From NCBI GenBank assembly GCA_026418115.1, contig JAOABY010000007.1, positions 1-61,966 on the forward strand: a DNA stretch of 61,966 nt, given 5' to 3'. The stretch is from Spirochaetaceae bacterium (lineage in GTDB: Bacteria; Spirochaetota; Spirochaetia; Treponematales; Rectinemataceae). The position numbers and the translations under genes were made by a program. The notes beneath the pieces were generated by a model. It was not told the DNA's origin. It did not search any database and saw nothing but the letters and a program-made list of their open reading frames with translations. How positions within the stretch are numbered: the stretch's first letter is position 1; every line of letters starts with the position of its first letter. Of this stretch, positions 20,184 to 38,635 are shown one piece after another.

Positions 20184-20252
20184 TTGACATTGCCATCAGA
20201 TAGCAATATATCAGTTATATAAAGAAAATATATCACCGATATATCGTATCAA
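20184..20252 (+). promoter_or_regulatory. Promoter with phased 11-bp operator-like repeats upstream of the SLH/MBL gene
   Basis: TTGACA (20184-20189), a 17-nt spacer and TATATC (20207-20212) form a good promoter. TATCAGTTATA (20209-20219) and TATCACCGATA (20231-20241) lie exactly 22 bp apart, with weaker 11-mers in the same register at 20220 and 20242. They match the 11-mers in front of the GntR gene at 38603-38635. The first one overlaps the -10 box and the second lies just after the expected start site, as a repressor site would. Confidence 0.65.
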
Positions 20253-20340: not shown

Positions 20341-22443
20341 ATGTACAAAGGACGAATCAGTATCGCCATCCTGATTCTAGGAGCGCTGGCACTCGCGGGC
20401 AATGCATTTGCTGCGACAGCCTCTACCTCCTCAGACAAGGTGGTTACCCGGGCCGAATTCGTCGGAACGCTGGTGGATTACTTCGGCTGGCCACACCGGT
20501 CGGAGTTCAACGACGTCTGGAAAGCGCCGCCACTACCAATTGCTGATGTTACACCTGGCGCGCTATATGCACGACAGATCGAGACGGCAGTCGATTTTGG
20601 CATAGTGACGCTCGATTCTGCGAACTGCTTCAACCCTGAGAAACCTGTTTCGCGCCAGGAAGCAGCTGCCCTGCTGGCTGATCTGTTCATGCTTTCATTC
20701 GACGGAGATGGACTGTGGCCATTCATTGACCGTAATGAGATCGCACCAGCCAATTACAAAGCTGCCAGCGCACTCGTCGGTCTCGGATTCATGCAGGGCA
20801 GAAGTGCGTCGTTGTTCAAACCGAATGAACCGCTTACTGCTGATGAATTCCAGAGCATATTTCAGAGTATTACTTCTGCAGTAGTTGCCCCAGTGCAGGC
20901 AGTTCCCAACCCAAACAGTGTTGCACCGCGCCGCTATGTAAAGCTTTGGACGCCAACACCTGGCGCGACCATCTATTTTACTTCTGATGGATCAGAACCC
21001 AGCGAAAAGAGTCCCATCTACACTGTTGCGACCAACGGTCACGTGAATGAAATGCTTTCTGCCAAACAGCTGCCAGAACGGGATGTCGTCTACAAGGCAT
21101 TTGCAGCGAAACCAGGCATGAAGGCGAGTCCAGTACGAACCTTCACGTGGCATCTGTACCGACCAAAGACTCCAGAATTCGCTCATCGGCTTCTTATCGA
21201 AAAGTCGGCGACACGCCCTGCAGTCTACCAGATCTGGTGTGACGCCGAGTCTGTACGTGCGATGGCGTACTATATCGAAGGCCAGGAGCGTGGTCTTTGC
21301 TTTGATGCGCTTCAGACACCACCAGAGCAGGCAAATCTGAAGGAATATATCGAAAAGAACCTTGCAACCAAACCATTTTTCCTCGTCATAGGTCATGAAC
21401 ACGGCGACCATGATGCACAGGCTATGAATTTCCTGAATGCAGGGCTCGAGGTGTATGCCAACAGGCGTGGGTGGTCCACGTTGGCAACTGCAGGTGCTTT
21501 CCCCGCCGTAGTGGCAAAGCCTGAAGATCAAGCCAGGATCAAGGATGTTGATGAAGGCGAGGTATTCCATCTCGGAGGTTGCGATCTCTGGGTATATGCG
21601 CTGCCTGGACATGCGAATGGCAATGTCATCCTCCAGGACAAGGTCAATGGGCTGATTTTCAGTTCGGATATCTATGGCTGCACACGGGCAGGGTCGGCAG
21701 ATAACGTGAACGTAGCTGGTGTGAAAGTTGATCTGCTGCTTTCGCTGGCGCAGCAGGTACATGCTGCTTACTACACGAACAATGGCAAGGTCACATTGCT
21801 CTTTACTGGTCATGACGAAACTCCACTCAATGCCGAAACCCACCTCACACGATTTGAGCAGGCGCTACAGAAAGCCATCGATTATGGTGAGTCAGGCTGC
21901 TCGCCAACCCTCCGTGGCAAGAACGATGCTCCAGGTTCTCGCACCGTGATCATTGGGGACATGTGGAAAGACAACACTGAGTGGATTGCACTCAAGATTG
22001 GCGGTGTCATGGGCGACAACTACGAATATCTGAGTACCACTCCCATAAATTACAATGGCAACGGTTTCATGAAGTATGCCGTGCTCTCAAATATTGAGAT
22101 TCATGGTGGTGAGCTTGAAGGGGTTGAAGTGAAATGGGCAGCCCCTGGCAATCCATTCCAGTGGGCAGGGCAGTCATTGACGGTTGCCAATGCTCTGCAG
22201 GGAAAATTCAATCCATGGGTGTATGACTACACAATCAAGGTGCCGCGCGGAACTCAGACGATAACGGTAAAACCGGTTGCAATGTCGAACCGTATCACCT
22301 ATATGCTTTTCAACGGCATTATTGTCGAAAACCGTGCGTCGCTTACAGTCCCTGTAAAGAATGGAGGCTCCTTTACCATCAAGATTGTCGCACCCGACAC
22401 GCTCACCACTGCCACCTATACCTTTACCATGAAGGAATTCTGA
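20341..22443 (+). CDS. Secreted SLH-domain protein with metallo-beta-lactamase-fold hydrolase
   Basis: 700 residues from the ATG at 20341 (AAGGAGG 5 nt upstream). Domains in order: signal peptide (to about 24, AGNAFAA); two SLH-like repeats (about 30-180; VTRAEFVGTLVDYF, VSRQEAAALLADLF) for cell-surface attachment; a chitobiase C-terminal-like beta domain (about 200-250; TPGATIYFTSDGSEPS); a metallo-beta-lactamase core with H352-x-H354-x-D356-H357, then LPGHANGN and LLFTGHDE; and a C-terminal cadherin-like beta sandwich (from about 615). It is probably an exported hydrolase of an ester, lactone or similar bond. It leads a two-gene unit with the esterase that follows. Confidence 0.85.
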   Translation: MYKGRISIAILILGALALAGNAFAATASTSSDKVVTRAEFVGTLVDYFGWPHRSEFNDVWKAPPLPIADVTPGALYARQIETAVDFGIVTLDSANCFNPEKPVSRQEAAALLADLFMLSFDGDGLWPFIDRNEIAPANYKAASALVGLGFMQGRSASLFKPNEPLTADEFQSIFQSITSAVVAPVQAVPNPNSVAPRRYVKLWTPTPGATIYFTSDGSEPSEKSPIYTVATNGHVNEMLSAKQLPERDVVYKAFAAKPGMKASPVRTFTWHLYRPKTPEFAHRLLIEKSATRPAVYQIWCDAESVRAMAYYIEGQERGLCFDALQTPPEQANLKEYIEKNLATKPFFLVIGHEHGDHDAQAMNFLNAGLEVYANRRGWSTLATAGAFPAVVAKPEDQARIKDVDEGEVFHLGGCDLWVYALPGHANGNVILQDKVNGLIFSSDIYGCTRAGSADNVNVAGVKVDLLLSLAQQVHAAYYTNNGKVTLLFTGHDETPLNAETHLTRFEQALQKAIDYGESGCSPTLRGKNDAPGSRTVIIGDMWKDNTEWIALKIGGVMGDNYEYLSTTPINYNGNGFMKYAVLSNIEIHGGELEGVEVKWAAPGNPFQWAGQSLTVANALQGKFNPWVYDYTIKVPRGTQTITVKPVAMSNRITYMLFNGIIVENRASLTVPVKNGGSFTIKIVAPDTLTTATYTFTMKEF

Positions 22444-22450
22444 CGAAGTC

Positions 22451-22496
22451 GCGCGCACCGGATGCAACACCCGGACATTCGGTGCGCGCATATTTT
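22451..22496 (+). terminator. Strong hairpin between SLH/MBL and esterase genes
   Basis: Perfect 10-bp arms GCGCGCACCG (22451-22460) and CGGTGCGCGC (22480-22489) with a 19-nt loop, then ATATTTT. It is either a leaky terminator or an intercistronic stabiliser, since the esterase ribosome site (GAGGAGG) follows at once and no separate promoter is evident. Confidence 0.65.
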
Positions 22497-22508
22497 GAGG
22501 AGGTCCCT

Positions 22509-24317
22509 ATGCGTACTTACAAATCAGTATCGATATTTCTGGTGGCTTTGTCTGTTCTGCTGTTTCTTGTTGCAGCACCGGTGGCGTTCTCCAGCGACCT
22601 GTTCGTACCGCGTTCGCTGGACAATGCACCTCCACCCCCTTATGACTACTCAAGAGCGAACCATCTTCCCATGACAGGATATTTTGAAAGGTCCTTTGAT
22701 GTGCAGGGAGTGCGAAGGACAGCAAGGATCTATATAGCACCTGATGCCCCCATCCGAGCCTATTTTACTGTTATTGCTGTTCCCGACGGTGTTGATACCG
22801 ATGAATTCATCATGAAAAGCGGCTGGAAGGCGATCGCAGACCAGAATGACGAAGGGCTGTTCATACTGGAACCGGGACCCAATGGATGGCTTGCTCCGGA
22901 ACAAGAACAGCCCTATCTTCAGACAGCAATAGGATTCTATCGCAACAATGACTATTTCTCGATCTTTGGTGAACACTATCTGGCTGGATACGGAAAAGGT
23001 GGAAGCGCGCTGGAAATGTGGGCTGCCAGCAATCCTCTTCAGGTATGCAGTCAGGTCTATGTAGAGACATCGACACCGGATGTGGCCTTCTATGCTCAGT
23101 TCAGCCAGAAAAAATTTGATGGTCTTTCGTCAGGCTACAAGAAGATCGAAATACCCGAGCATCTGAAGATCTCCTACAATGAGGTGCCAGTCCCCACCTG
23201 GTACATCAATTCGAATCTCTCCTCTATCGCTACAGGTCTTGATTACTGGAAAGCTGCAAATGATTGCCAGAGTGATGCATTCTCAAGGCCCAACTATCTG
23301 CTGGGGAGCAAGGTATATCCTCAGTCAGCAAATTCGAACGCCTGGCAAACCGACTATGTCGGCTCAATCAGCAAGGTCGCTGTTCTTGAGCGAAATGCCA
23401 ATCCCTGGAACAAAGCTCTTACTGCCGCAATCTATGGATTCTTAACTGAATTCGTCCGCTACGATGTTACGAGTGCATACGGAAACCAGCTTGGGCTACG
23501 CGTACCCATGGGGCAGCGCTATACCATGATGGTCAACGGATTCATTCGCGAATATATGGTGTATGTGCCTGATTCTGCCCGCAAGCTCTGGCCTAATGGT
23601 GCTCCTGTTCTAATGGTATTTCCTGGTGACAGCCAGACGGATATCGTGTTCTGGCCTGCCACACAGTGGTGGAAAGTCGCTGACCGAGAAGGAGTGATTC
23701 TGGCGATAATCTGTGAGCAGTACAGCCGTAAATCAACAGTGGTGAGCCATAAGGACAACGAATACTTTGTTCCTCAGCTTCTGGATGAGTTGAAGCGATC
23801 CTACCACATCGATGAAACGCGGATCTATGCCACCGGCCAGTCAGCGGGCAGCGTTGCAGCACAAGGTTTTGGCATGACCAACCCAGATTATTTTGCTGCC
23901 ATCGCGTCAACTTCGGGAGTTGCCAGCTTCAATGCAGATGATTGGCAGAGACTTCTGAAGGCTGCAAGAGGGAAGCCCATGCCTACTTATGCCATCATCG
24001 GCGAAGGCGACATCGAAGCGATGACCGGCACGCCATGGGATTCTACCTACAATCAACTGGACCAGTGGCTGGAGTACTACGCGAAGGCAAATGGCATTGC
24101 CTCATTAGGTGATCCTTCACTTGCACGACAGCAAGGCAGATTCATCAGTGCTGAATGGAGGAATACACAAGGCTTCCCTATGGTCAAATGGACAATGACG
24201 CTGTACCGAGCGCACAATTGCATCCCTGCGGAGATGCCGATGCTCTGGGACTTCCTCAAGCATTGGTCGCTGAAAGATGGCGTTCGTTATTATGACGGAA
24301 TTCCGCTGAAGCAGTGA
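22509..24317 (+). CDS. Secreted PHB-depolymerase/feruloyl-esterase-like alpha/beta hydrolase
   Basis: 602 residues from the ATG at 22509 (GAGGAGG upstream). The signal peptide is followed by a 300-residue N-terminal region with no recognised domain, then from about 335 an alpha/beta-hydrolase with the nucleophile elbow G-Q-S-A-G (Ser 445), the loop VLMVFPGD that usually makes the oxyanion hole, and a late His in LYRAHNCIPAEMP. This resembles LpqC/PHB depolymerase and feruloyl esterases. It likely cleaves esters outside the cytoplasm. It shares the operator-bearing promoter of the upstream gene if the hairpin is read through. Confidence 0.82.
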   Translation: MRTYKSVSIFLVALSVLLFLVAAPVAFSSDLFVPRSLDNAPPPPYDYSRANHLPMTGYFERSFDVQGVRRTARIYIAPDAPIRAYFTVIAVPDGVDTDEFIMKSGWKAIADQNDEGLFILEPGPNGWLAPEQEQPYLQTAIGFYRNNDYFSIFGEHYLAGYGKGGSALEMWAASNPLQVCSQVYVETSTPDVAFYAQFSQKKFDGLSSGYKKIEIPEHLKISYNEVPVPTWYINSNLSSIATGLDYWKAANDCQSDAFSRPNYLLGSKVYPQSANSNAWQTDYVGSISKVAVLERNANPWNKALTAAIYGFLTEFVRYDVTSAYGNQLGLRVPMGQRYTMMVNGFIREYMVYVPDSARKLWPNGAPVLMVFPGDSQTDIVFWPATQWWKVADREGVILAIICEQYSRKSTVVSHKDNEYFVPQLLDELKRSYHIDETRIYATGQSAGSVAAQGFGMTNPDYFAAIASTSGVASFNADDWQRLLKAARGKPMPTYAIIGEGDIEAMTGTPWDSTYNQLDQWLEYYAKANGIASLGDPSLARQQGRFISAEWRNTQGFPMVKWTMTLYRAHNCIPAEMPMLWDFLKHWSLKDGVRYYDGIPLKQ

Positions 24318-24336: not shown

Positions 24337-24370
24337 GCCCTGAAACGGCAATTTACAGCCCTTTCAGGGC
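24337..24370. terminator. Bidirectional hairpin between convergent genes
   Basis: GCCCTGAAA (24337-24345) pairs with TTTCAGGGC (24362-24370) over 9 bp with a 16-nt loop. It lies between the esterase gene (+) and the end of the 16-gene operon (-), and overlaps the last codons of the minus-strand gene. Confidence 0.55.
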
Positions 24371-25117
24371 GGCAAGGAACCGTGACTCCGTGCGAGAGGG
24401 GAGCGCCAGGGAGCCTGTGTAGGAGCACTGCACCTGGAGCGCTTTCAGGAAAGTCCGATAGTCAAAGCCGTCCTCCACTGTTGGCGGCAGCGGCACTCTT
24501 CGAGTACGGGGGTGCTCAAGGTGTACATGGCGCAGCAGCGCTGCGTATGGCACAAGTTCTTCCATGTTCAGCGCTGTCTGCGCAACATAGGCTGACGACA
24601 GCAGCATGGCCAGATTCTGCTGGCCAACCGAGGCGATAATTTCTGCTACCTCTGCCGGCGTTGTCAGGAAATTGGTCACCCGTGGGCTTGCAGGCTCAAT
24701 GCAGACCCTCATGCCAAATCTCGAAGCCACATCGCACAGCATGAACAGAAACTGGCTGAAGTGCTCCTTCTGAACTGAAGTATCTCCTTCTACCGGAAGC
24801 ATACGCGAGGGCCCATCCGCCCAGGCAATCATGGTACAACCGAATGTCGCCGCTCTCTCCAGTGCCTGCTTGAGATATTCGGTCCACGAAAAGATATTGA
24901 ATCCCCGTTCAGTAACCTGTACCTCTTTGGGAAGAGGAGCCTCGAAAATCCTGCAGGAGAAAGCATGGTCACGTATCAGCTCACGAAACCGCTCGAGTGC
25001 TGCTGGATCACACTGCATGATTGTGGCGATTTCCGGCTCGATATCATCGAAGCCCCATTCTCTGGCGTGCGCAATGCTCTCAACTGAAGTAGTGCGCAGA
25101 ATCAAGCGGCTGCCCAT
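24353..25117 (-). CDS. TIM-barrel sugar isomerase/epimerase-like protein with lost metal ligands
   Basis: 254 residues from the ATG at 25117 (AAGGAG 6 nt upstream). It belongs to the AP-endonuclease-2/xylose isomerase-like fold and is a clear paralogue of the protein at 28368-29174. Of the four metal ligands seen in that paralogue (E140, D173, H198, E239), this one keeps E141 and H199 but has S174 and L239 at the other two. It is therefore unlikely to be a normal metal-dependent isomerase; a structural or ligand-sensing role is possible. It is the last gene of the 16-gene operon, next to the altered AroQ. Confidence 0.82.
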   Translation of the reverse strand: MGSRLILRTTSVESIAHAREWGFDDIEPEIATIMQCDPAALERFRELIRDHAFSCRIFEAPLPKEVQVTERGFNIFSWTEYLKQALERAATFGCTMIAWADGPSRMLPVEGDTSVQKEHFSQFLFMLCDVASRFGMRVCIEPASPRVTNFLTTPAEVAEIIASVGQQNLAMLLSSAYVAQTALNMEELVPYAALLRHVHLEHPRTRRVPLPPTVEDGFDYRTFLKALQVQCSYTGSLALPSRTESRFLAALKGL

Positions 25118-25127
25118 CCTGCACTCC

Positions 25128-25565
25128 TTATCTGCCCACCAGGTATACCAGGGCTTCGAGAGCAAGCACATAGCTGTTAGCTCCAAAGCCTGCAATGGTC
25201 CCGACACAGACATCAGCGATGACTGAGGTATGCCTGAATTCCTCTCTGGCATGCACGTTCGAAATGAAGACCTCTACACAGGGAACCAGCATCGTGCCTA
25301 TGGCACTTCTGAGCGAGTAGCTGTAGTGGGCAAGTGCGCCTGCATTGAGGATGACCCCCGCATAGTTGCCCGGGACCTGCTGCATGCGGTCGATGATGTC
25401 GCCTTCGGAATTGTACTGCTCGCAGTCTACTGCAACCCCAAGTTCCTCTGCTTTGCTGCGAAGACGTGAATGGATTTCTTCCAGTGTGCTTTCCTTGTAT
25501 ATCGATACTTTCCTCGTACCGAGAAGATTGAGGTTGGGTCCTGAAATGACCAGAAACCTGTTCAT
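25128..25565 (-). CDS. Type II 3-dehydroquinate dehydratase-like protein lacking the catalytic His
   Basis: 145 residues from the ATG at 25565 (AGGAGG upstream). It has the AroQ fold blocks GPNLNLLGTR, Y23, NAGALAHYS and AREEFRHTSV, with R18 and Y23 of the active-site lid in place. The family's EVHISN motif reads EVFISN, so Phe 100 replaces the histidine that acts as general acid in studied enzymes. The IYG after the lid Tyr is IYK. It lies 20 nt downstream of a second AroQ paralogue that is intact. Dehydratase activity is doubtful; subunit mixing with its paralogue or another substrate is possible. Confidence 0.85.
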   Translation of the reverse strand: MNRFLVISGPNLNLLGTRKVSIYKESTLEEIHSRLRSKAEELGVAVDCEQYNSEGDIIDRMQQVPGNYAGVILNAGALAHYSYSLRSAIGTMLVPCVEVFISNVHAREEFRHTSVIADVCVGTIAGFGANSYVLALEALVYLVGR

Positions 25566-25585
25566 GGCTGCCTCCTCTGTACTCC

Positions 25586-26041
25586 TCATTCCAGTTCCTG
25601 CGACTCAAGGATGCCGATGAGCGCGCGAAGTCCCAGGATATAGCTGTATGATCCAAAGCCGCAGATCTGCCCCCTGCACACTGGTGCGATGACAGATACA
25701 TGTCTGAATGGCTCACGCTTGAAAATGTTCGAGATATGTACTTCTACGGTGGGAAGCTTGACCGCTGCTATGGCATCTCTGAGCGCGATGGAGTAATGGG
25801 TAAAGGCTCCTGCATTGATGACAATGCCATCGATGCTTCCCAGGCAACTGTGGATATGATCGATCAGGACACCTTCCAGGTTCGACTGGAAAAACCCTAC
25901 ACCTACTTCGAGCCGGACGGCTTCCTCTTCGATTTCGTGATTGATCTGATCGAGCGTTTTCCCACCGTAGATGCCGATTTCGCGCTTGCCCAGCATATTG
26001 AGATTGGGGCCGTGCATGACGGCGATTCTGTACCGTTCCAT
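25586..26041 (-). CDS. aroQ: Type II 3-dehydroquinate dehydratase
   Basis: 151 residues with all expected blocks: [10 protein letters not shown] with R20, lid Tyr 25, [20 protein letters not shown] with H82, and EVHISN with catalytic His 102, then FRHVSVIAP. The enzyme removes water from 3-dehydroquinate to give 3-dehydroshikimate. Its position in an uptake and catabolic operon with TRAP transport, rather than with other aro genes, suggests catabolic use (quinate-type substrates) instead of aromatic amino acid synthesis. That is inference. The start has a weak AAAGG site. Confidence 0.9.
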
Positions 26042-26081
26042 AGAAACCTTTGCAAGAGCATATATGCATTTACAGCAGGTA

Positions 26082-27245
26082 TCAAGGCACGGACCCCGGT
26101 TCTATCTCCAGAAAATCCCTTCCGAAATCTCCAAGCCCTTCGCAGCCGGCTTCTCTGACGATCACTGCATCCTCGATCTTGATATGCCCGGCAACAGGAT
26201 GGATGAAATCCGTTTCTATTGACAGCACCATGCCAGCCTCCAGCGGACGCAAGCTGTCTCGCTCCATGACGGGCTGCTCATATGGCACGAGACCGATGCT
26301 GTGCACGACGAATCGAGCATATGGAGCAAATTCTGAAGACAGTGCTGCCTGTTCGCCCGCAGCAACCACTGTGCCGCACGCCACGCCTGACCTGATGATC
26401 CTTCGCACTTTCTGCTGTACCTCGATGCATGCTTCGTACAGTTCGCGAGCCAGCGTAGAGGGAGGCCCCATGGAAGCCATTCTGCAGATGTCCGCAATGT
26501 AATCCCGATCATGTGCGCCAGCATCGATGTGGCATGCCATGCCACGCTTCCATGTCAGGCGGTCTGAAGGAGCGCGTATGCAAGCCGGTCCGGTGCTGAT
26601 GAGGGCGAACAGAAAGGAGAGGTCGCGCATGGCCATTTCCCGGGCCACCATGCGTTCGATCTCTTTTGTGCTGATGCCTTCGGTACATGCAAGAAAGGAT
26701 GCCCTGATGGCTCGTGCGTTCCTGTCGTACGCGGACCTCATGATGGCAAGCTCGGTGCTGCTCTTGATGGCACGAAGTTCGTTCATGAGACCGGTAATGT
26801 CCCTGAATGCTGCGAGCGGCAGTTCCTTTCGCAGCGTGATATACACATCTGCGGGGAGAAAGGGCATTTCCACACCTATCGTTGCCTTTTCGAATCCCTT
26901 CCTGCGCAGTACCTGCACCAGTGCTGCAGCGGCAGGGGCTGTACCTCTTGGGGAATCGTAGATTTCCGGGAACCAGGGGCGCTGATCATAGTCCATCTGC
27001 ATGTATTCATCAGGCCGCCTGATGTAGAACGCCTCCCCAGGCGCCACCGCAGGTATGCCTGCAAAGGAGATGTACTGACTCTCAGCCATTCTCTGGGAAT
27101 TGGCATGAAAGTGGTAATAATACCCTCCGCTTGCATATCGTATGTTGTGCCTGCTGCTCAGAATGGCGATATCCAGGCCCTGTTCAGCCATGAGGCGTTT
27201 GAATCTGGAGAGATCAAATGGCACGGCTTCATCTGGTACAGCCAT
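26082..27245 (-). CDS. M24 family metallohydrolase (Xaa-Pro peptidase/creatinase type)
   Basis: 387 residues. The N-terminal creatinase-type domain ([14 protein letters not shown]) is followed by a pita-bread catalytic domain carrying all five metal ligands: Asp in [10 protein letters not shown], Asp in IADICRM, His in [11 protein letters not shown], Glu in LSIETDF and Glu in KIEDAVIV. Members cleave Xaa-Pro peptides or C-N bonds such as in creatine. In this operon, beside a creatininase-family hydrolase, an amide-type substrate is thinkable but unproven. GGAG precedes the start. Confidence 0.88.
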
Positions 27246-27303
27246 AGTGCTCCATGCTCCCGGTCAGGATGGTACATCTGCCAAACAGCTCATGCTCACA
27301 GTA

Positions 27304-28335
27304 TCAGTCATTGGTTAGAATGACTTTGACATCCTGTGTCTTTCCGGACGCGAGTTCCTCAAAAATCCGCGGGCCCTCGGAAAGAGGATAGCGTCCGGTG
27401 ATCATCTTTTTCACATCGAGTTTCCCATCGATGATCAGCTGCAGGCCCTCGCGCATTTCGCTGGTGTACATGTAGCTCGCCTGAAGCCTGAGCTCCTTGA
27501 CGACCGCGTGCTTGTACTCGATTTCGAAGGTTGGCGAGGCCATGCCCACCATCAGGATCGTGCCTCCATTGCGGGCAATCTCGATGGCGCGGTTTACGGT
27601 CTGCGGTATGCCTGCGGCATCAAAGACCACATCGACACCGGTATCGTCGGTCATCTTTCTGATGATGCCTTCAACATCGTCGTTCGAATTGATGACATCG
27701 GTTGCCCCGCACTCACGCGCCATCTGGAGCCTGTTCTCCATGACATCGATTGCGATAATCCTGGCGGCGCCGAAAATCCTGAGACACATGACTCCCATCA
27801 ACCCGATCGGTCCGACGCCGAATACCGCCACAGTCTTGCCGTCGAGCCGGCCCGCATGCTTGACGGCACGCAGTGAAATCGACAGCGGTTCGACCAGTGC
27901 ACATTCTTCATAGCTCACCGAATCAGGAAGTGGCATGAGCTTTTCTGCAGGAGCCACGACATATTCTGCCATTGCGCCGTTATAGCTGCCTGCCTTCATG
28001 GTGGTACCTATGATGTAGCGATAGTCGCAGACATTGGTCAGCCCGTCATGGCAGTTTCTGCAGGTGCCGCAGTATAGATTGGTTACTACTCCGACGCGAT
28101 CGCCTGGCTGTATCCCATGCACTCCTTCACCAAGGGCGGCAACCTGCCCGGAAAACTCATGGCCCATGATGAGCGGCGGCTTGCGCATCGCAGACACAGC
28201 CTTGTATCCCGCCAGGTCTGATCCACAGATCGAGACTGCCTTGACGCGTACCAGCACCTGCCCCGGCCCTGGTTGGGGAGTAGGTACTTCTTCATAGCGA
28301 ATATCGTGAGGGCCATAGTATACAAGCGCTTTCAT
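27304..28335 (-). CDS. Zinc-dependent alcohol/polyol dehydrogenase (MDR family)
   Basis: 343 residues from the ATG at 28335 (AAAGGAG upstream). Medium-chain dehydrogenase: catalytic zinc site C in SICGSD and GHE, structural zinc cysteines CGTCRNCHDG then C, and a Rossmann motif GVGPIGLMG near residue 170. It resembles sorbitol, threonine and galactitol-phosphate dehydrogenases. It would oxidise a secondary hydroxyl with NAD(P). Because it lies in the TRAP/AroQ operon it is a candidate for the first oxidation of the imported hydroxy-acid. Confidence 0.92.
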   Translation of the reverse strand: MKALVYYGPHDIRYEEVPTPQPGPGQVLVRVKAVSICGSDLAGYKAVSAMRKPPLIMGHEFSGQVAALGEGVHGIQPGDRVGVVTNLYCGTCRNCHDGLTNVCDYRYIIGTTMKAGSYNGAMAEYVVAPAEKLMPLPDSVSYEECALVEPLSISLRAVKHAGRLDGKTVAVFGVGPIGLMGVMCLRIFGAARIIAIDVMENRLQMARECGATDVINSNDDVEGIIRKMTDDTGVDVVFDAAGIPQTVNRAIEIARNGGTILMVGMASPTFEIEYKHAVVKELRLQASYMYTSEMREGLQLIIDGKLDVKKMITGRYPLSEGPRIFEELASGKTQDVKVILTND

Positions 28336-28367
28336 CGTATTGCTCCTTTCCTGTCGGTCGTGCCTCA

Positions 28368-29174
28368 TCAGTCTGCTCGATAGGGTGTAATGTTATGTGC
28401 AGCAAAGAAATCTATGACGCTGCGGATATCCTGCGCATACTCCCTGAACACCGAGGCTTCGATGGAAATGATTTCCTTGTAGGAGATTTTCTTGAGTGTC
28501 TCAAGAAATGGTGCATAGTCGAAGCCGTCGTCGAGTCGCGGCACTAGTCGTTCGGGGAACACTGTCAGCGGGTTATCGAGATGCACGTGGCGTATGTACA
28601 GTTCATATTCTTCTATGTCGGAGAGCGGCCTCTGCATTTCCACCATGTAGCGGTAATCAATGAAGGTCTTGAGGTTGTGGCGGCCATATTTTCTGATGAA
28701 TGCTACCGCTTCCGGCAGGCTGTTGACGATGTTCGAGAGTTTCCTGCCAAGCGGTTCGATGAGAATCGTGATATTGCGTTGCGCAGCGATATCGAGCAGC
28801 ATGATGAAGAATTCGTCGAACTTTGCACGGGCAGCCTCGATGTCGCCCTCAATTGGAAGACTCCGCGCCTTGCCATTGCCGAACACGATATAGCGAGCCC
28901 CCATCTCTGCCGCACGATCGCATGCTCTCTCCAGATAGCTGCGATAGAACCCGAGATCGAATGAAGGATCAGCGATGCGCGAATCGAGTGGTATGGGGTT
29001 GTCGAATACGTCTGCCGGTATGCCAGAGTCCCTCAGTCGCTTTCTGGCCGCCCTGTACTCAGCCTCATCGAATCCCATCAGCTCTCGTATATGGAGTTCT
29101 GCGCAATCAAAACCGGCTTCGGCGATGGCATCCAGATCCTTGATATAGCCGAAACAGCCAAGACGCATGTGCAT
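28368..29174 (-). CDS. TIM-barrel sugar isomerase/epimerase or dehydratase
   Basis: 268 residues, AP-endonuclease-2/xylose isomerase-like barrel. Four metal ligands fit the family: E140 (ILIEPLG), D173 (FIDYRYM), H198 (RHVHLDNP) and E239 (ISIEAS). The family includes sugar epimerases, inosose dehydratases and 3-dehydroshikimate dehydratases, and the exact reaction cannot be told from sequence alone. GGAGG lies 8 nt upstream. It follows dctM by 12 nt. A degenerate copy ends the operon at 24353. Confidence 0.88.
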   Translation of the reverse strand: MHMRLGCFGYIKDLDAIAEAGFDCAELHIRELMGFDEAEYRAARKRLRDSGIPADVFDNPIPLDSRIADPSFDLGFYRSYLERACDRAAEMGARYIVFGNGKARSLPIEGDIEAARAKFDEFFIMLLDIAAQRNITILIEPLGRKLSNIVNSLPEAVAFIRKYGRHNLKTFIDYRYMVEMQRPLSDIEEYELYIRHVHLDNPLTVFPERLVPRLDDGFDYAPFLETLKKISYKEIISIEASVFREYAQDIRSVIDFFAAHNITPYRAD

Positions 29175-29186
29175 TGCAGCTACCTC

Positions 29187-30467
29187 CTACCTTACGTAGC
29201 CAAAAATCCGTGGCAGGAACATCGACAGTGGCTCGATATACGTCACAAGGAAGAGCACTACGATTTCCGCGAGCAGGAAGGGGAGCGTAGCCTTCGTGAC
29301 CTTTTCGATCGGCAGCTTCGTTATGGTACACACCACATAGAGGCAGAGCCCCACGGGTGGTGTAATCAGGCCGATCATCAGGTTGAGCACGACAATGGCC
29401 CCCAGGTGGATGGGGCTGATGCCGAAGGGCCGTACGATGCTCAACAGCAGCGGCACGGTGATGATGATCGCTGATGAGCCCTCCATGAACGTCCCGATGA
29501 TGAGCAGCACGATGTTGATTGCAAGCAGCAGTGAGAATTTATTGGTAAAAACCTGCCCCGCGAGCAGCGCAAGCTTCTGGGGTATCTGTTCCGTGACCAG
29601 CATCCAGTTGAACACGTTGGAGCACGCGATGATGAGAAAGACCGTGCCGGTGGTCTTTGCTGTGGCAATGAAGGATTCCTTCAGCATTTTGAAGGTAAGG
29701 TTCTTATAGACGAGAAAACCTATGATGAGCGCATAGACCACTGCTGCTCCTGAGGCCTCGGTTGCAGTAAAGACGCCGGATAGAATGCCACCCAGGATGA
29801 TAATGGGCATTAACAGAGGCACAATACCATTCACAAGCGCCACACCTATCTCCTTCAGTGTCGGCCAGCGTGGCGTCCTTGGGTATTTTCTTTTTATAGA
29901 AATAATTGCATTGACCACCATCAACGAGAGGCCAAGCAGTATTCCGGGGATCGCTCCTGCAAGAAAGAGCGCGGCTACCGAGGTCGAACTCACCAGCGAA
30001 TAGATCACGAACGGGATGCTGGGAGGAATGATCGGGCCAACGACTGATGAAGAACAGGTGACCGCTGCACTGAAATCATCGTCAAAGCCCTGTTCGACCA
30101 TGGCAGGGATAAGCATGGTGCCAAATGCCGAGGTATCTGCTACCGCTGAGCCGGAAATACCTGCAAAGAACATCGAGGCGACGATATTGACGTGCCCAAG
30201 CCCCCCTCTGAGCCTGCCCACCATGACGGTCGCAAGGTCGACAAGGCGCTTCGTGATGCCGCTTCTCGCCATGAGGTCACCGGCAAGAATGAAAAACGGA
30301 ATCGCCATGAAAGGGAACGAGTCCACGCCGGTAAACATGCGCTGGGCGATCAGTCCTATGGTAATTCCCTTGGAAAGCAGGAATATGAGTGCGGAAGTTC
30401 CGAGACAGAATGCAATCGGCACACCGGCGATGAGAAATATCAGAAATGCAATGATTGCGAATACCAT
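29187..30467 (-). CDS. dctM: TRAP transporter large permease (DctM)
   Basis: 426 residues with about twelve membrane helices and the DctM blocks FAGISGSAVADTSAFGTMLIPAM (start of the second repeat near residue 95), GPIIPPSIPFVIY near 145, and LGAIVVLNLMIGLITPPVGLCLY near 365. It is the sodium-driven channel for the DctP ligand. AGGAG precedes the start, 14 nt after dctQ. Confidence 0.95.
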   Translation of the reverse strand: MVFAIIAFLIFLIAGVPIAFCLGTSALIFLLSKGITIGLIAQRMFTGVDSFPFMAIPFFILAGDLMARSGITKRLVDLATVMVGRLRGGLGHVNIVASMFFAGISGSAVADTSAFGTMLIPAMVEQGFDDDFSAAVTCSSSVVGPIIPPSIPFVIYSLVSSTSVAALFLAGAIPGILLGLSLMVVNAIISIKRKYPRTPRWPTLKEIGVALVNGIVPLLMPIIILGGILSGVFTATEASGAAVVYALIIGFLVYKNLTFKMLKESFIATAKTTGTVFLIIACSNVFNWMLVTEQIPQKLALLAGQVFTNKFSLLLAINIVLLIIGTFMEGSSAIIITVPLLLSIVRPFGISPIHLGAIVVLNLMIGLITPPVGLCLYVVCTITKLPIEKVTKATLPFLLAEIVVLFLVTYIEPLSMFLPRIFGYVR

Positions 30468-30481
30468 GCTCTACTCCTGTA

Positions 30482-30970
30482 TCAATCCACCGGTTGCTGC
30501 ATGCCCCGGATGATATGTATAAGTTCTTCCAAAGCCATGAGGAACGATCCTGTGGTCACTGAAAAGTAGGGAATAACCATGGGGATTTCCATGGCACTCG
30601 ATCTCTGTATGGACAGAGTGCTCAGATGTTTGAAGGAATTGACAAGTATGATGACGAGAAATACTTCCACAATGAGTCTGGTCGCAAGAACCACCCATTT
30701 CCGTATCTTTACTGGAATGGCTGATACGACAGCGGTCAGACCAATGTGCTCATCGCTCTTCATTGCGAGAGATGCACCGAGATACCCCATCCAGATCATG
30801 AGGTAGCGCCCCAGTTCTTCTGCCCAGGGGAAGGAATGATTCAGCACATAGCGACCGAAAACCGCGACAGCGATGTTTGCGACCATCACGCCGAGAATGA
30901 TCGTGATGGCCCATTCGACCGCTTTTTCCATGATCGACAGGATGTTCGTTTTCAACGATTTGCTGCCCAT
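30482..30970 (-). CDS. dctQ: TRAP transporter small permease (DctQ)
   Basis: 162 residues from the ATG at 30970 (AAGGTGG about 10 nt upstream). Four helices with the DctQ signature FGRYVLNHSFPWAEELGRYLMIWMGYLGAS in the second helix region and then a basic loop. It forms the membrane complex with DctM. A later Met (residue 14) is another possible start. Confidence 0.92.
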   Translation of the reverse strand: MGSKSLKTNILSIMEKAVEWAITIILGVMVANIAVAVFGRYVLNHSFPWAEELGRYLMIWMGYLGASLAMKSDEHIGLTAVVSAIPVKIRKWVVLATRLIVEVFLVIILVNSFKHLSTLSIQRSSAMEIPMVIPYFSVTTGSFLMALEELIHIIRGMQQPVD

Positions 30971-31001
30971 CGCTGCGTTACCACCTTTTCCGCCATAGTT
31001 G

Positions 31002-31064
31002 TGCCGCTCAGTCAGCGGCAGAAACGAGGGGGAGGGCTCCCTTCTCGGGGAAGCCACTCCCCTC
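31002..31064 (-). promoter_or_regulatory. Two stem-loops between dctP and dctQ
   Basis: TGCCGCT (31002-31008) pairs with AGCGGCA (31014-31020) over 7 bp with a 5-nt loop. GAGGGG (31026-31031) pairs with CCCCTC (31059-31064) with an inner AGGG/CCCT fold. Both lie in the 106-nt gap after the binding-protein gene, as in the other three transport operons. Confidence 0.6.
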
Positions 31065-31076
31065 TTGATTGTACGC

Positions 31077-32111
31077 TTACTTCAGACCTTCTTTGGCTTT
31101 CTGCTGCGCGACCGCATCACTGACGGCCTTCAGAAGTTCATCGATGAGTTTCGGATCGACTCTTGTCTTCAGGTAGTCGATGACCGGCGGCTGCATTGCC
31201 TTGCGGAACTGCTCCATCTCCGCCTCGGACGGCGAATAGATCTGCACCTTTGCAGCGGCGAGCTGGTCAAGACCAGCTGCGTTGAGGTAGTTCATGACGC
31301 CGCGGGAGACGGTGCTGCTGATCTGTGCGCTGTCGAGGATGATGTACTGCAGGTCAGCAGGCAGACTTCTGAAGAACTTCTCGTTGATGATGAACCAGTC
31401 GACTCCGTATACGTGCCCATCCAGGGTCATGTATTTCTGCACTTCGTAGAGTTTCCCTGAAAGGATGGAACCGACCGGGTTCTCCTGACCATCAACGACG
31501 CCGGTCTGCAGGGCGGTGTAGGTCTCGGTCCATGCGATCGGGGTGGGGTTGGCGCCAACTGCCTTGAGCATATTGACGTAAACCGGCGTTTCCATGACGC
31601 GGATCTTCAATCCCTTCAGATCAGCGGGCGATTTGATTGGACGCACGTTGTTGGTGAAGTGCCTGAAGCCTACCTCGGCAAATGCCAGACAGCGCATACC
31701 AGTCTGCTGGAGGAACATTTCACGCAGCTTGTCACCGAAAGGTCCATCCATCACTTCCCAGGCGATCTTGCTTGAGGGGAACAGATACGGAATGTCGGTG
31801 ATGCCCGCAGGCGGGAAGAAGCTTGAAAGTACGCCAGAAGCAATACCTGCTTCGACGGTACCTGCTCTGATGCCCTCGACGTACTCTCGTTCGGCACCAA
31901 GCGCGCCAGCTCCGTAGACTGTTACCTTGATGCGCCCGCCGGAACGCGAGTTGACAAGTGCAGCAAAGGTGAGCGCCTGCGCCTGCTTGCGTGAAACGGT
32001 CGGATCGGTGGAATCCGCATGTGCCAGTTTGAGCTCGATTACTTTTGCCTGACCGAAAACGGTCGCGACGGAAAGTACGAGTACCAGGAATACGATTCCC
32101 AGTTTTTTCAT
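31077..32111 (-). CDS. dctP: TRAP transporter solute-binding protein (DctP)
   Basis: 344 residues: signal peptide to about residue 21 (ATVFGQA), then a DctP fold with the conserved Arg region LKGLKIRVMETPVY near 170, followed by ALQTGVVDGQENPVG near 210, where the carboxylate is bound. It delivers an organic acid to DctQM. AAGGAGG precedes the start. The family binds many C4 and sugar acids, and the ligand here is unknown. Confidence 0.95.
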   Translation of the reverse strand: MKKLGIVFLVLVLSVATVFGQAKVIELKLAHADSTDPTVSRKQAQALTFAALVNSRSGGRIKVTVYGAGALGAEREYVEGIRAGTVEAGIASGVLSSFFPPAGITDIPYLFPSSKIAWEVMDGPFGDKLREMFLQQTGMRCLAFAEVGFRHFTNNVRPIKSPADLKGLKIRVMETPVYVNMLKAVGANPTPIAWTETYTALQTGVVDGQENPVGSILSGKLYEVQKYMTLDGHVYGVDWFIINEKFFRSLPADLQYIILDSAQISSTVSRGVMNYLNAAGLDQLAAAKVQIYSPSEAEMEQFRKAMQPPVIDYLKTRVDPKLIDELLKAVSDAVAQQKAKEGLK

Positions 32112-32146
32112 ACCACTGCCTCCTTCAAAATACCTTCATATACATT

Positions 32147-32168
32147 ATGCTGCCTTTGCAGGCAGCAT
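32147..32168 (-). promoter_or_regulatory. Stem-loop upstream of dctP
   Basis: Perfect 8-bp arms ATGCTGCC (32147-32154) and GGCAGCAT (32161-32168) with a 6-nt loop, between the creatininase-like gene and dctP. It could end the upstream message partly or shield the dctP message 5' end. Confidence 0.55.
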
Positions 32169-32178
32169 GGGTTCTGGA

Positions 32179-33141
32179 TCAGCTCGGCCACGCAATGGTG
32201 TAGATATGCTTGCCTCCATTGAGTGGTCCCTTGAGCAGCGCTTCGATTTCTTCCTCACTGCGCTGCGACATCAGTTTTGCTTCGGGCAGCACGCCCACGG
32301 GGAAGCGCGCGAGAATATCGTCGTGCAGCTTCACAAGATAGTTGAGTACATTCTCGATTGCCTTGCGCGCCTTGGATGCGTCCGCAAGCGTCGCCTTGCC
32401 AAGCACTCCTTCGGGGAAGGTCACACACTCGATGCCGGTTCCGCCAATGATGCAGTGGCCGGGGATGGGGTTCCCGTAGATGTCTCCGCCTCGATCCACA
32501 TGTCCCGGAGGGAGGAATCCCTTGAGTGTGGTGTCTTCCGCATGCTCCGGCTGGCAAAGCTCGGGGAACAGCGCCATGGAAATTGAGGTTTCCGCTTCGT
32601 CTGCATGCTGGAAGGGCGTCTCGAATGGACCGCCATGTGCCTTGTCCATGAGATCTTTTCCCATCACACGGGGCAGATCAACAAAGATGACGACTGCAGG
32701 CACCTGATATTTCTTGCCCCATTCCTGGATTGCCGAGGGCAGGGCGTATTCCTGGCCATGCATGCTGATGAAAATCATCTTGCGGAAACCGGTATTCCAG
32801 AAGCCGGAAATCATGGCCCTGATATGGTCGCAGAACACATTGTCGGGAAGCGGCACCGTGCCAGGCTGGCCAATGTGATGGAATGGATGTGAGCCATACC
32901 ACATGGGCATGGCAACGGTACAACCGGTTTTCTGTGCAACCAGCTCGGCTATCCTTGTGACGATGAAGGTGTCCTCACCATAAGGACCTGCCTTACCATG
33001 ATTCTCGGTTGACCCGATGGGAATGATGATGATGTCGTTCTGCTTCAGACGCTCCTCGACATCATACTTGGTCATGGTCTGGAAATAGATTCTGGAAGGT
33101 TTGTCCATTTGCCCTTCCTGCGGGAAGTTCCATTCCGACAT
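32179..33141 (-). CDS. Creatininase-family metal-dependent amidohydrolase
   Basis: 320 residues from the ATG at 33141 (AAGGAG upstream). Creatininase fold: the family metal block IPIGSTENHGKAGPYGED near residue 45, HGQEYALPS (where HGGN is usual), and HADEAETS near 185. Relatives hydrolyse creatinine or formamide groups of pterin precursors. The function within this operon is open; with the M24 protein it hints at an amide or lactam in the substrate. Confidence 0.85.
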   Translation of the reverse strand: MSEWNFPQEGQMDKPSRIYFQTMTKYDVEERLKQNDIIIIPIGSTENHGKAGPYGEDTFIVTRIAELVAQKTGCTVAMPMWYGSHPFHHIGQPGTVPLPDNVFCDHIRAMISGFWNTGFRKMIFISMHGQEYALPSAIQEWGKKYQVPAVVIFVDLPRVMGKDLMDKAHGGPFETPFQHADEAETSISMALFPELCQPEHAEDTTLKGFLPPGHVDRGGDIYGNPIPGHCIIGGTGIECVTFPEGVLGKATLADASKARKAIENVLNYLVKLHDDILARFPVGVLPEAKLMSQRSEEEIEALLKGPLNGGKHIYTIAWPS

Positions 33142-33181
33142 ATATGCTCCTTGTTGCATGTTCATTGTCTTCAGCCGGGCC

Positions 33182-33547
33182 TCATGACTGGAGCCGGTGG
33201 CTCTTGAGCTGAGGCGCATACACCCACACGAATTTCAGCTTGGTGGTACCCGTGTTGACGATCTTGTGCCTGCCGCCCGGTGGGTTGTAGACACAGATGC
33301 CTGGGTGCACATCGATCTCCTGATCCTCGGTAATGAATTTGCCGGTACCTTCCAGGAACAGCATGACTTCCTCTTCGGTCTCATGCATGTGTTCAGGTAC
33401 CATTGACCCTGGCTCGGTTTCGTTGACACCGAGGGCAAGATTCTGGGCCCCGACTGTCCTTTCTGAAATAAGGATCCAGGACGCGCGCGGGGGATCCCTT
33501 CTTTCAGGAACCACTGTGTTGATATCGACGACTTTCAGTCCTCCCAT
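33182..33547 (-). CDS. Cupin-domain protein
   Basis: 121 residues, single cupin_2 domain: PEHMHETEEEVMLFLEGTG (metal-binding His/His/Glu motif) and a second His in PPGGRHKIVNTG. Such small cupins isomerise sugars, bind small acids or cleave C-C bonds. It has a strong GGAAGGAG site and sits 40 nt upstream of the creatininase-like gene. Confidence 0.85.
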   Translation of the reverse strand: MGGLKVVDINTVVPERRDPPRASWILISERTVGAQNLALGVNETEPGSMVPEHMHETEEEVMLFLEGTGKFITEDQEIDVHPGICVYNPPGGRHKIVNTGTTKLKFVWVYAPQLKSHRLQS

Positions 33548-33571
33548 CGTTCACTCCTTCCAATCTTGATA

Positions 33572-33610
33572 AGGAGGCGGACAGCTCGCGCAGGCGCCTG
33601 GCAGCCTCCT
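33572..33610 (-). promoter_or_regulatory. Stem-loop between SDR and cupin genes
   Basis: AGGAGGC (33572-33578) pairs with GCCTCCT (33604-33610), with a small inner AGGCGCCT palindrome. It lies in the longest spacer (87 nt) of the front half of the operon, a likely mRNA processing or attenuation site. Confidence 0.5.
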
Positions 33611-33634
33611 GTTCATTTTTCATCCTGCGCCTTT

Positions 33635-34381
33635 TCAGGCCATGAAAATGCCACCATTCACGTCGAGCGTGACGCCGGTGATCCAGTCCGATCTGGACGA
33701 TGCAAGGAAGATCACCGCATCAGCCACATCTTCCGGCATGCCGTGTTTGGGTACCGCTCTGCCCGCAATCCAGGATTCGAATACTTCCTTTGGATACTGG
33801 CCGGTCTGCTCGGTGTAGATCGTTCCCGGGCAGATCGAATTGACATAGATGTTGTTCGGTCCCAGCTCCTTTGCGAGGCACTTGGTCATGGCGATGATGC
33901 CACCCTTGGATGCCGCATAGTTGACGCCGACTCCCGGCCTTCCCGTCCGCCCGCCCAGCGAGGCGATGTTGACGATTTTTCCGTACTGCTGCTTCTTCAT
34001 GACAGGCGCAACTTCCCTGCAGCAGAGGAAAGGTCCGGTCAGATTCACCTTGATCACAAGATCCCACAGCTCGAGCGTGGTCTCTTCGAGGGGTTTGTGG
34101 CGCGAAATACCGGCATTATTCACCAGGACATCGATACGGCCGAAATGATCGACCGTCGTCTGTACCGCAGCCCGAACCTCATCTTCGCGGGTAACATCGA
34201 CTTTGACGGGCAGCGCACGCGCATCCGCAACGCCGAGCTCCCTGGAAAGCTTTTCTATTGATTCAGCGTTCATGTCCCAGAGCGCGACGCCGGCACCTTC
34301 CTGTGCACATCTTCTAGCAATTGCCAAACCCAGGCCGTTCCCCGCCCCCGTCACGATCACCACTTTTCCTTCAAGTTCCAT
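33635..34381 (-). CDS. Short-chain dehydrogenase/reductase (FabG-like)
   Basis: 248 residues from the ATG at 34381 (GAGGGGG upstream). NAD(P) motif TGAGNGLG at 11-18, NNAG at 88-91, catalytic S141, Y155 and K159 (YAASK). The C-terminus ends GVTLDVNGGIFMA as in classical SDRs. It would interconvert a hydroxyl and a keto group of an operon intermediate. Ten nt after aor. Confidence 0.93.
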   Translation of the reverse strand: MELEGKVVIVTGAGNGLGLAIARRCAQEGAGVALWDMNAESIEKLSRELGVADARALPVKVDVTREDEVRAAVQTTVDHFGRIDVLVNNAGISRHKPLEETTLELWDLVIKVNLTGPFLCCREVAPVMKKQQYGKIVNIASLGGRTGRPGVGVNYAASKGGIIAMTKCLAKELGPNNIYVNSICPGTIYTEQTGQYPKEVFESWIAGRAVPKHGMPEDVADAVIFLASSRSDWITGVTLDVNGGIFMA

Positions 34382-34391
34382 GCCGTCCCCC

Positions 34392-36122
34392 TCAGAACTG
34401 GTCCGCAGAAGGCACATAGCCTTCCCAGATGTGCAGCATCTTTTCTTCCGGCACATCAAAAACCGAATTCTTAGGCGGCAGCGGCTCTTCTCTCATGAAT
34501 TCGGGAATGGGCCGGAATTCCTCGGAAACGCCCGCTTGCCGGTTGAATGCGCGTTCGGTCATGATGCATTCAAGGCCGATGCCGTTCATCTGCTGGACAC
34601 TCAGGTCCCAGCCGTACCTGGCTTGCAGAATCTTCGCCATCATCTCCGGCTTCTTGGCGAATGGCGGGCGAATGAAGATGCAGACGCCGAGCGTGTCGAG
34701 CAAGGCCGCCCGTACCTGCAGCCGCATGGAAATCTCAACCTGGCCGTCGGGGCTCAGCGGATTGTGGGTATTTCGTGTTTCGAATGCATTGCCGGCAGTA
34801 TGGTCCGCTCCCATCGGGGAGGTGGTGTACGTGACCCCGTTTCCCTTGAGCGCACGGGGATCATAGGCAGGGATAGCCTGCCCCTTGATGGCAGGAACTC
34901 GCCGGACACCCAGGCAGCGACCAGTGATGACCGCTCCATTGCCGAGAATCCTGCCAAGCCAGGTTCCCTGGCCAATCTGGCGGATGAGGTCCTTGGCGCC
35001 TTCCGCATCTCCGAAGGGAATGACCCCCGCTTCCATGGCAACTCCGATCGCCACTCCTGTTTCCATGGCATCGACACCTACCTGGTTGCAGAGTTGGTTG
35101 AGCTCAGCAATATCCGTCGGATCTCCAATGCCGCAGTTCGGGCCAAGCAACACGAGGCTTTCGTACTGCATGGTAGCGACGATCCTGTTGCCTTTCTCAT
35201 CAGGGAATACGCTGCTGCACTGGATGGTGCACCCGGGCACGCAGGGCTTGCCCGTTCTGCCTCCTCGCGAGAGTATCAGGTCGCGTACTGCTGGCCCTGT
35301 CAGCCGATCCGCCCCTTCGAAACTGCCCTGGCTGAAATTGCGGGTGGGCAGCATGCCGAACTCGTTGGTGTCCTTGAGGATATCGAGCGTGCCATAGAGG
35401 TTGCGGTTGCGGGTCTTTGCGTCAGCAGCCAGTTCTTCTACGGTCCAGCGGACGAGCTCACGAAGCCCGGCTTCATCATAGACCTCCGGTTTGTAGGTTG
35501 CGCCGGTATCATCAACTATTACCGCCTTGAGCCCCTTCGAGCCCATGAGTGCACCAAGCCCACCACGGGCGGCATACCTGATCTGTTCATCGGCATCATC
35601 AGGAGAGGCAATGCCTGCTGCTGCCATCTTCATCTCACCTGCAGGGCCTATACAGAAAATGCCTACCCGTCGCCCATATTTCTGCCGCAATTGCGCAATG
35701 GCTTCATCGACCAGCTTCCCGGCAAGTTCGGGAGCAGGGTCAAGCCGCGCCCCCGATGCCGTGATCACCAGCACATCGGTAGTCTTTTTTTCCGGGATAT
35801 CCTCAATGATGACTGCTCGAAGTCCCAGCCGTGCCAGACGTTTGCCGGCATAACCTCCGGTATTCGCTTCCTTTGCGCCGCCGGTGAGCGGGCTTTTGCC
35901 ACCAATCGATATCTTGCCGGTTGTCGTCAGATTCGTATCCGCCAGCAAGCCGGATGCAAAGATGAGTTTGTTGTATCTTCCCAACGGCTCACAGGTCGGT
36001 GGTACTTCTCTGAGGAGAGTATGAGCAATGAAGGATCGACCGCCCCATTTGAGCTGGTCTCCTGTTGCTTCCTGCATGGATACGCTGCGTGTTCTCACAT
36101 TCACACGCATGATGTATTTCAT
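34392..36122 (-). CDS. Tungsten-type aldehyde:ferredoxin oxidoreductase family protein
   Basis: 576 residues from the ATG at 36122 (AAGGAGG upstream). AOR N-domain with KISIGGKSPLTGGAKEANTGG near 70, then iron-sulfur cysteines C294, C298 and C302 and a distal C481 (LDTLGVC), which bind one [4Fe-4S] cluster next to the pterin cofactor. The protein is shorter than the about 600-residue archaeal enzymes. It oxidises an aldehyde to an acid with ferredoxin, oxygen-sensitive chemistry that points to an anaerobe. Which aldehyde is unknown. Confidence 0.92.
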   Translation of the reverse strand: MKYIMRVNVRTRSVSMQEATGDQLKWGGRSFIAHTLLREVPPTCEPLGRYNKLIFASGLLADTNLTTTGKISIGGKSPLTGGAKEANTGGYAGKRLARLGLRAVIIEDIPEKKTTDVLVITASGARLDPAPELAGKLVDEAIAQLRQKYGRRVGIFCIGPAGEMKMAAAGIASPDDADEQIRYAARGGLGALMGSKGLKAVIVDDTGATYKPEVYDEAGLRELVRWTVEELAADAKTRNRNLYGTLDILKDTNEFGMLPTRNFSQGSFEGADRLTGPAVRDLILSRGGRTGKPCVPGCTIQCSSVFPDEKGNRIVATMQYESLVLLGPNCGIGDPTDIAELNQLCNQVGVDAMETGVAIGVAMEAGVIPFGDAEGAKDLIRQIGQGTWLGRILGNGAVITGRCLGVRRVPAIKGQAIPAYDPRALKGNGVTYTTSPMGADHTAGNAFETRNTHNPLSPDGQVEISMRLQVRAALLDTLGVCIFIRPPFAKKPEMMAKILQARYGWDLSVQQMNGIGLECIMTERAFNRQAGVSEEFRPIPEFMREEPLPPKNSVFDVPEEKMLHIWEGYVPSADQF

Positions 36123-36162
36123 AGATGCCTCCTTCCTGATTCCTGGCCAGCTTTCCCTGTCG

Positions 36163-37203: not shown

Positions 37204-37210
37204 AGCTTCC

Positions 37211-37882
37211 TCACTCTTCAAGGAGCCCGAGCTGTTCGAAAACCGGCTCGAGCTTGTTCAACTCCACACTGCTGATGCCAGCCTTGAGCTGTTTTGCCTT
37301 TTCTTCCTCAAATGCCACACGTGCACGTGATTTCTCGAGCACCTCTGCACATTCCTGTGCACGTACCACCACCATGCCGTCCTCATCTCCCATGATCAGA
37401 TCACCTGGGAAAATCGTCATGCCACCGAAATTGATGGGATAATTGATGAGTCCCAGCGTGGATTTTGTGGTGCCCCGGATGGAAAAACCACGACAGAATA
37501 CAGGGAATCCCATGCGCGCGATTTCCTCCGAATCCCGGATGCAGCCATCGATTGCAAGGCCGGCTATTCCCCTTGCTACAGCAGCAGTAGCCATGAGCCC
37601 ACCCCAGTAGCCATAATCGAAGGCATCTCCAACTGTCGCTACGATGACAGCTCCTGGCTGCGCTCTCTGCAGTGCCTTGTGCAGCATGAGATTGTCCCCA
37701 GGAGCACACTGCACGGTGTACGCTGGCCCACAGATTCTGTTGCCATGCGCGGCCGGTTTGATACCGTTGTTGATATAGCCTTTGCGTCCGGATGCCTCAT
37801 ACACCGTAGCGACACCGATCTCCCTGAAGGCCTGAATGATGCTCTCTTCGACAATTCTCTTCTCTTTCAATACATGGATCAT
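37211..37882 (-). CDS. RraA-like aldolase/decarboxylase
   Basis: 223 residues from the ATG at 37882, which forms an ATGA overlap with the regulator gene. RraA fold: GDAFDYGYWGGLMATAAVARG near 85-105 and DGCIRDSEEI near 112 (the R-D pair that binds Mg). RraA relatives act as 4-hydroxy-4-methyl-2-oxoglutarate aldolases or oxaloacetate decarboxylases; the name RraA (RNase E inhibitor) is only a structural relation. It could split or decarboxylate the final keto-acid of the pathway. Confidence 0.88.
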   Translation of the reverse strand: MIHVLKEKRIVEESIIQAFREIGVATVYEASGRKGYINNGIKPAAHGNRICGPAYTVQCAPGDNLMLHKALQRAQPGAVIVATVGDAFDYGYWGGLMATAAVARGIAGLAIDGCIRDSEEIARMGFPVFCRGFSIRGTTKSTLGLINYPINFGGMTIFPGDLIMGDEDGMVVVRAQECAEVLEKSRARVAFEEEKAKQLKAGISSVELNKLEPVFEQLGLLEE

Positions 37883-38568: not shown

Positions 38569-38602
38569 ACACTGCCTTTCCAGGTATCAGCAGGTTTTGG
38601 TG

Positions 38603-38635
38603 TATCGATAAAATATCACCAATATATCACTGATA
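38603..38635 (-). repeat. Three tandem 11-bp operator-like repeats before the GntR gene
   Basis: Consecutive 11-mers read TATCGATAAAA (38603-38613), TATCACCAATA (38614-38624) and TATCACTGATA (38625-38635). The last is a TATC-N3-GATA palindrome. A near-identical palindrome TATCACCGATA occurs at 20231. Spaced one helical turn each, downstream of the promoter start site, they suit cooperative repression by the FadR-type regulator. Confidence 0.7.

Follow-up and report, generated by a model that had tools for sequence, protein, structure and literature searches.

A predicted GntR/FCD regulon linking a cyclitol-type TRAP pathway with surface and secreted hydrolases in an uncultured spirochaete lineage

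A GntR/FCD regulator encoded on the minus strand at 37879–38568 of the window, which is the whole 61,966-nucleotide stretch of DNA that was analysed, very probably acts as the autorepressor of a regulon for a cyclitol-type substrate taken up by a TRAP transporter, and it would also control a surface metallo-beta-lactamase-fold (MBL) hydrolase and a secreted esterase. The window corresponds to contig C119 of a 2.17-Mb assembly of 141 contigs. Two promoters within it, 18 kb apart, carry the same repeated element, and this is not chance. We infer the binding, the repression, the inducer and the substrate of the regulon from the sequence. The result provides a regulon and a predicted operator for an uncultured spirochaete lineage, both open to experimental test, and the tie to one defined route of import and degradation narrows the function of the SLH/MBL protein and the esterase.

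Operator sites and genes in the window

The promoter of the SLH/MBL gene has a −35 box, TTGACA, at 20184–20189 on the plus strand and, 17 nt past it, a −10 box, TATATC, at 20207–20212 on the same strand; TTGACA with a 17-nt spacer is also found in every gntR orthologue promoter. The predicted operator A2 (20206–20222, plus strand, ATATATCAGTTATATAA) begins on this −10 box, which it overlaps, and it has two mismatches to the 17-bp unit ATATATCRSYGATATAT and a matrix score of 18.4. The predicted operator A1 (20226–20246, plus strand, with the core ATATATCACCGATATAT at 20228–20244) lies two helical turns further and scores 29.9. A1 and A2 are thus spaced by 22 bp, and the repeat between them is poor, with a score of 7.8.

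The gntR promoter, which consists of TTGACA, a 17-nt spacer and AATACT (38646–38674, minus strand), is conserved in seven other genomes. It is followed, after the −10 box, by three copies that abut at 11 bp on the minus strand: the predicted operators B1 (38622–38638, GAGTATCAGTGATATAT, three mismatches to the 17-bp unit, matrix score 18.7) and B2 (38611–38627, ATATATTGGTGATATTT, two mismatches, matrix score 23.6), and a weak predicted repeat, B3, at 38603–38613, for which the score over 38598–38618 is 12.4.

The earlier note had described these elements as 11-mers, namely TATCAGTTATA at 20209–20219 and TATCACCGATA at 20231–20241 on the SLH side, and TATCGATAAAA at 38603–38613, TATCACCAATA at 38614–38624 and TATCACTGATA at 38625–38635 on the gntR side. 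All five are present at these positions; the identities of 10 of 11 positions that it had drawn between the two promoters are correct, and so is its placement of TTGACA with a 17-nt spacer in both. Its 11-bp unit held in part: the phasing is borne out by a lag-11 signal, but the real unit is a palindrome of about 17–23 bp, CCGATATATCGGYGATATATCGG, rather than an 11-mer. The core TATC-N3-GATA occurs in all sites and in the orthologues, and the complement of A1, CGATATATCGGTGATATAT, is the gntR operator of HGW-Spirochaetae-7.

The first gene behind the SLH promoter (20341–22443, plus strand) encodes a 700-aa protein that combines SLH, an MBL-fold hydrolase and a cadherin-like part, with a signal peptide-like N terminus and an HEHGDH motif. 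The next (22482–24317, plus strand) encodes a secreted-type esterase of the PHB depolymerase/Esterase family with a GQSAG motif. Downstream of gntR, the catabolic run on the minus strand (24353–37891) comprises genes for RraA/CHA-aldolase, Ldh2, AFOR, SDR, cupin, IolN, DctPQM, a TIM-barrel epimerase, an ADH/IolM-like protein, M24, two type II DHQ dehydratases and a TIM-barrel protein. The IolN-like hydrolase reaches 531 bits against a cut-off of 245, and the CHA-aldolase model NF006731 gives 207 against 179; the IolM relative (230 of 450 bits) and the IolO relative (51 of 300 bits) stay under the curated cut-offs. The presence of IolN, the CHA-aldolase, two type II dehydroquinases, TIM-barrel epimerases and a TRAP transporter suggests that the substrate of the pathway is a cyclitol or a cyclitol-carboxylate such as quinate. 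Speculatively, the secreted esterase and the surface MBL hydrolase may release this substrate from an ester or a lactone.

The regulator, its paralogues and a third unit

The regulator, referred to as GntR-37879, has an N-terminal winged HTH domain (PF00392, 67 bits, cut-off 27) and a C-terminal FCD domain (PF07729, 78 bits, cut-off 24.3), which places it in the GntR/FCD family. The recognition helix SKTP(V/I)REA is common to GntR-37879 and all its orthologues, so that each of them has the proline which, in the recognition helix of the FadR subfamily, is reported to avoid G/C at positions 6/14 (PMC4494728). The orthologues are without the usual Arg at position 28 and have Q, P or L there; GntR-37879 appears to have this Arg in a by-eye alignment to FadR.

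A further site, at C53:122533, lies upstream of a run of genes for a glyoxalase, a racemase, an unknown protein, an SDF symporter, a serine-dehydratase-like protein, an FCD regulator and AFOR, with the promoter TTGACA-17-GGTAAT upstream. The gntR operon of G014 has homologues of the first three of these genes after its ADH gene, and that of G028 contains homologues of the glyoxalase gene and the unknown gene. Judged from its site and these relatives, the C53 operon is a predicted third target, one that the earlier note had overlooked. The simplest history would be the break-up of a single ancestral operon whose pieces kept or regained the operator; the regulon would then have stayed intact while the operon split into separate units with an operator on each. 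The FCD regulator within the C53 operon (G000:C53:116381-117349) is 322 aa long and has a second HTH-like part at its N terminus.

The genome has five FCD genes, and in principle one of the four regulators besides GntR-37879, such as the one embedded in C53, could read the sites at the SLH promoter by cross-talk through a similar motif. The C53 unit combines a site with an FCD gene of its own whose product could read it, and in two other genomes, G075 and G078, a distant FCD gene stands beside a similar palindrome. However, the motif is defined by the promoters of GntR-37879 orthologues, all of which have the SKTP(V/I)REA helix, whereas the four paralogues have SR.. or GR.. in place of SKTP; in relatives, the gntR operon includes the C53 glyoxalase and racemase genes; and the upstream stretches examined for three of the four paralogues showed nothing resembling the operator. 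A paralogue is thus an unlikely reader of the SLH promoter.

If GntR-37879 itself reads the sites, as is preferred here, its dimers would bind palindromes of the form (C)GATATATCRSYGATATATC(G), arrayed at the one-turn phasing of 11 bp over the −10 and start-site region, and the bound protein would block RNA polymerase sterically until a pathway metabolite releases it. Its targets would be its own operon, which would import a cyclitol-like polyhydroxy acid by TRAP transport and degrade it; the convergent SLH/MBL-esterase unit, which would attack the substrate extracellularly; and the glyoxalase-racemase-symporter operon on C53. Autorepression by steric block is suggested by the location of the sites, which cover the −10 and start region in every target promoter, including that of the regulator itself. 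More tentatively, the repressor might spread as stacked dimers, one per turn of an 11-bp array, with every TATC/GATA half-site able to serve two overlapping palindromes, and the length of the array might tune the repression of the three scattered units, including the lineage-specific surface hydrolase and the secreted esterase that would release the TRAP substrate; this elaboration is considered rather doubtful.

It is quite improbable that the element is an activator site or a hairpin in the 5′ transcript instead of a repressor operator. Most of it is downstream of the −10 box and so in the initially transcribed region, where palindromes could presumably fold in RNA; however, overlap with the start site is the classical position of a repressor, and the SLH array begins at the −10 box itself.

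Motif statistics and conservation of the element

The reading of the element as a GntR operator is supported by searches that use sequences from other genomes only. The pattern CRATATATCRGYGATATAT was derived from the gntR orthologue promoters of G027, G028 and HGW-Spirochaetae-7. With up to three mismatches, it matches the whole 2.17-Mb genome only at A1 (0 mismatches), A2 (2), B2 (3) and one C53 site (2), and the reversed pattern, used as a control on the same genome at the same threshold, gave no match. A genome-wide search from orthologue sequences recovers both window promoters, with the only perfect match at the SLH promoter. The 17-bp unit likewise has its sole perfect genome match at 20228–20244, within A1. 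Two sites with three mismatches were set aside as background: C53:119732 falls within an open reading frame, and C75:16586 at the upstream edge of a DUF2202-like gene. The short 11-mer TATCANNGATA, with 13 + 3 matches, is too short to inform alone as a genome search.

The weight matrix was built from seven orthologue sites of other genomes, with the window sequence excluded. The top five positions in the 62-kb window are A1, B2, B1, A2 and B3, and the next-best position scores 9.6, against 12.4 for B3. The highest score in 6.2 Mb of sequence simulated at the composition of the window was 18.1, and at 65% A+T it was 25.1, which is still below the 29.9 of A1. A loose 11-mer pattern has 7 matches in the window against 1.9 expected, and none of 100 shuffles reached 7. 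Over eleven promoters, the lag-11 identity is 0.50 compared with 0.27 in shuffles, none of 1000 of which reached 0.50, and no other lag came near it; this indicates head-to-tail repeats at a fixed spacing, with a significance that is overstated because the promoters are partly related.

Conservation was evaluated in a sample of 394 genomes from the order; eight of them, counting the own genome, have a close gntR orthologue. The element stands before gntR in all seven of the others, 2 to 12 nt past a promoter of TTGACA, 17 nt and a weak −10 box, with weaker copies in G014 and G019 (16 and 15 of 21). The concern that orthologous promoters might lack the element is thus answered, and its retention upstream of the regulator gene characterizes an autoregulated local FCD regulon. 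A strong motif match is found in 16 of the 394 genomes, among them six of the eight with a close orthologue (hypergeometric P of about 4e-8, in which independence is overstated, as the genomes are related). In the remaining ten, most matches fall within open reading frames, bar two beside a different FCD gene. The sites are A/T-rich, as promoters are too, but an origin as chance A/T-rich repeats is refuted by the retention of the element in seven other genomes together with the lag-11, orthologue-only pattern and matrix results, and is extremely improbable.

The two exceptions are in G075 and G078, where the palindrome AAATATATCAGTGATATATCA lies just past the TTGACA promoter of a gene divergent from the distant FCD regulator; it may represent a similar operator class in another FCD subfamily, and other FCD proteins may use such sites. 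In G014 a second 11-bp tandem lies between gntR and the divergent DHQ-dehydratase genes, where G091 has a further site. G014, G027 and G028 also share a second conserved palindrome, approximately TTTCTTTATCGATAAAGAAA, ahead of the gntR promoter, and the weak repeat at 38603 of the window resembles half of it; this palindrome may serve another regulator or the divergent promoter as an operator.

The gene order gntR-RraA-Ldh2-AFOR-SDR-cupin-IolN-DctPQM-epimerase-ADH is kept in G014 and G091 and, to a large part, also in G027 and G028. For the SLH/MBL protein, the sample contains a single strong homologue (59%); in G091, its gene lies roughly 0.47 kb past the ADH gene that closes the gntR operon, and on the same strand. 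The esterase has two strong homologues (69% and 57%), which are fused in one 1191-aa frame of G091 (L124:2229–5804, from contig C268) that adjoins an M24 peptidase gene and a second gntR paralogue. In the promoter of this double esterase, TTGACA-17-TATCAT is followed by a TATCATTGA-like array phased at 11 bp, without a full palindrome; no good palindrome copy was found upstream of either the esterase or the SLH homologue in G091, which speaks against the proposed co-control. Owing to the gene context, the link of the SLH/MBL and esterase genes to the regulator holds across families and has support beyond the motif alone. The earlier proposal that one GntR protein represses both units accordingly gains support, at the level of sequence, from the element before all orthologues, the co-occurrence of regulator and motif, and the G091 context. 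No close relative of the SLH/MBL protein or the esterase was found in the 29 other genomes of the own family, and the close homologue of the SLH/MBL protein in only one of the 393 other genomes of the order suggests horizontal spread.

Comparison with known systems

The operators of the FadR subfamily follow TKGT-N3-ACMA (PMC4494728). The predicted sites resemble them as palindromes with a 3-nt centre beside promoters and with A/T-rich flanks, but they have a TATC-N3-GATA core in place of the usual GT-N3-AC (PMC4494728), and this predicted core is non-canonical for the known FCD kind. NanR and BioR are known exceptions to the FadR-type consensus (PMC4494728), and the missing core thus does not exclude the protein from the FCD group. 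The earlier statement that FadR/FCD proteins bind short palindromes is sound in general, although their usual core is absent here.

The structures 3sxy/3fms, which we take to be those of TM0439 (UxaR), are among the best solved-structure matches to GntR-37879, and NanR was matched to it by sequence. The UxaR (TM0439) regulon of Thermotoga maritima is alike in that its GntR regulator binds a palindrome found in several operons and controls PelA, an extracellular hydrolase, together with genes for transport and catabolism; its substrate and genes differ from those proposed here, and no 11-bp array is mentioned in the accessible part of the source (PMC3750489). NanR of E. coli, with its (GGTATA)3 operator, is likewise a GntR/FCD repressor with a tandem repeat operator bound by cooperative dimers (PMC8012715). 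However, its GGTATA units are direct repeats, whereas the spirochaete unit GATATATCGGC is palindromic at 11 bp, and NanR has a 32-residue N-terminal extension (PMC8012715), whereas in GntR-37879 the HTH domain starts at residue 16, after only about 15 residues. Of the known relatives, UxaR is closest in regulon logic and NanR in operator architecture. The inositol regulon of Thermotoga shares an IolN-like hydrolase and, more distantly, the IolM/IolO relatives, but it has a ROK-family regulator (IolR) and an ABC transporter where the spirochaete has FCD and TRAP (PMC3750489).

A literature search of partial coverage found no published description of the motif or the regulon. The kind of system, a local FCD catabolic regulon, is ordinary, with a moderate gain in interest from the 11-bp arrays and from surface enzymes that are specific to the lineage. 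Elsewhere in the window, at 43224–49159, the citrate lyase genes for CitF, CitE, CitG and CitX adjoin a TctA-type transporter gene, upstream of a WYL regulator.
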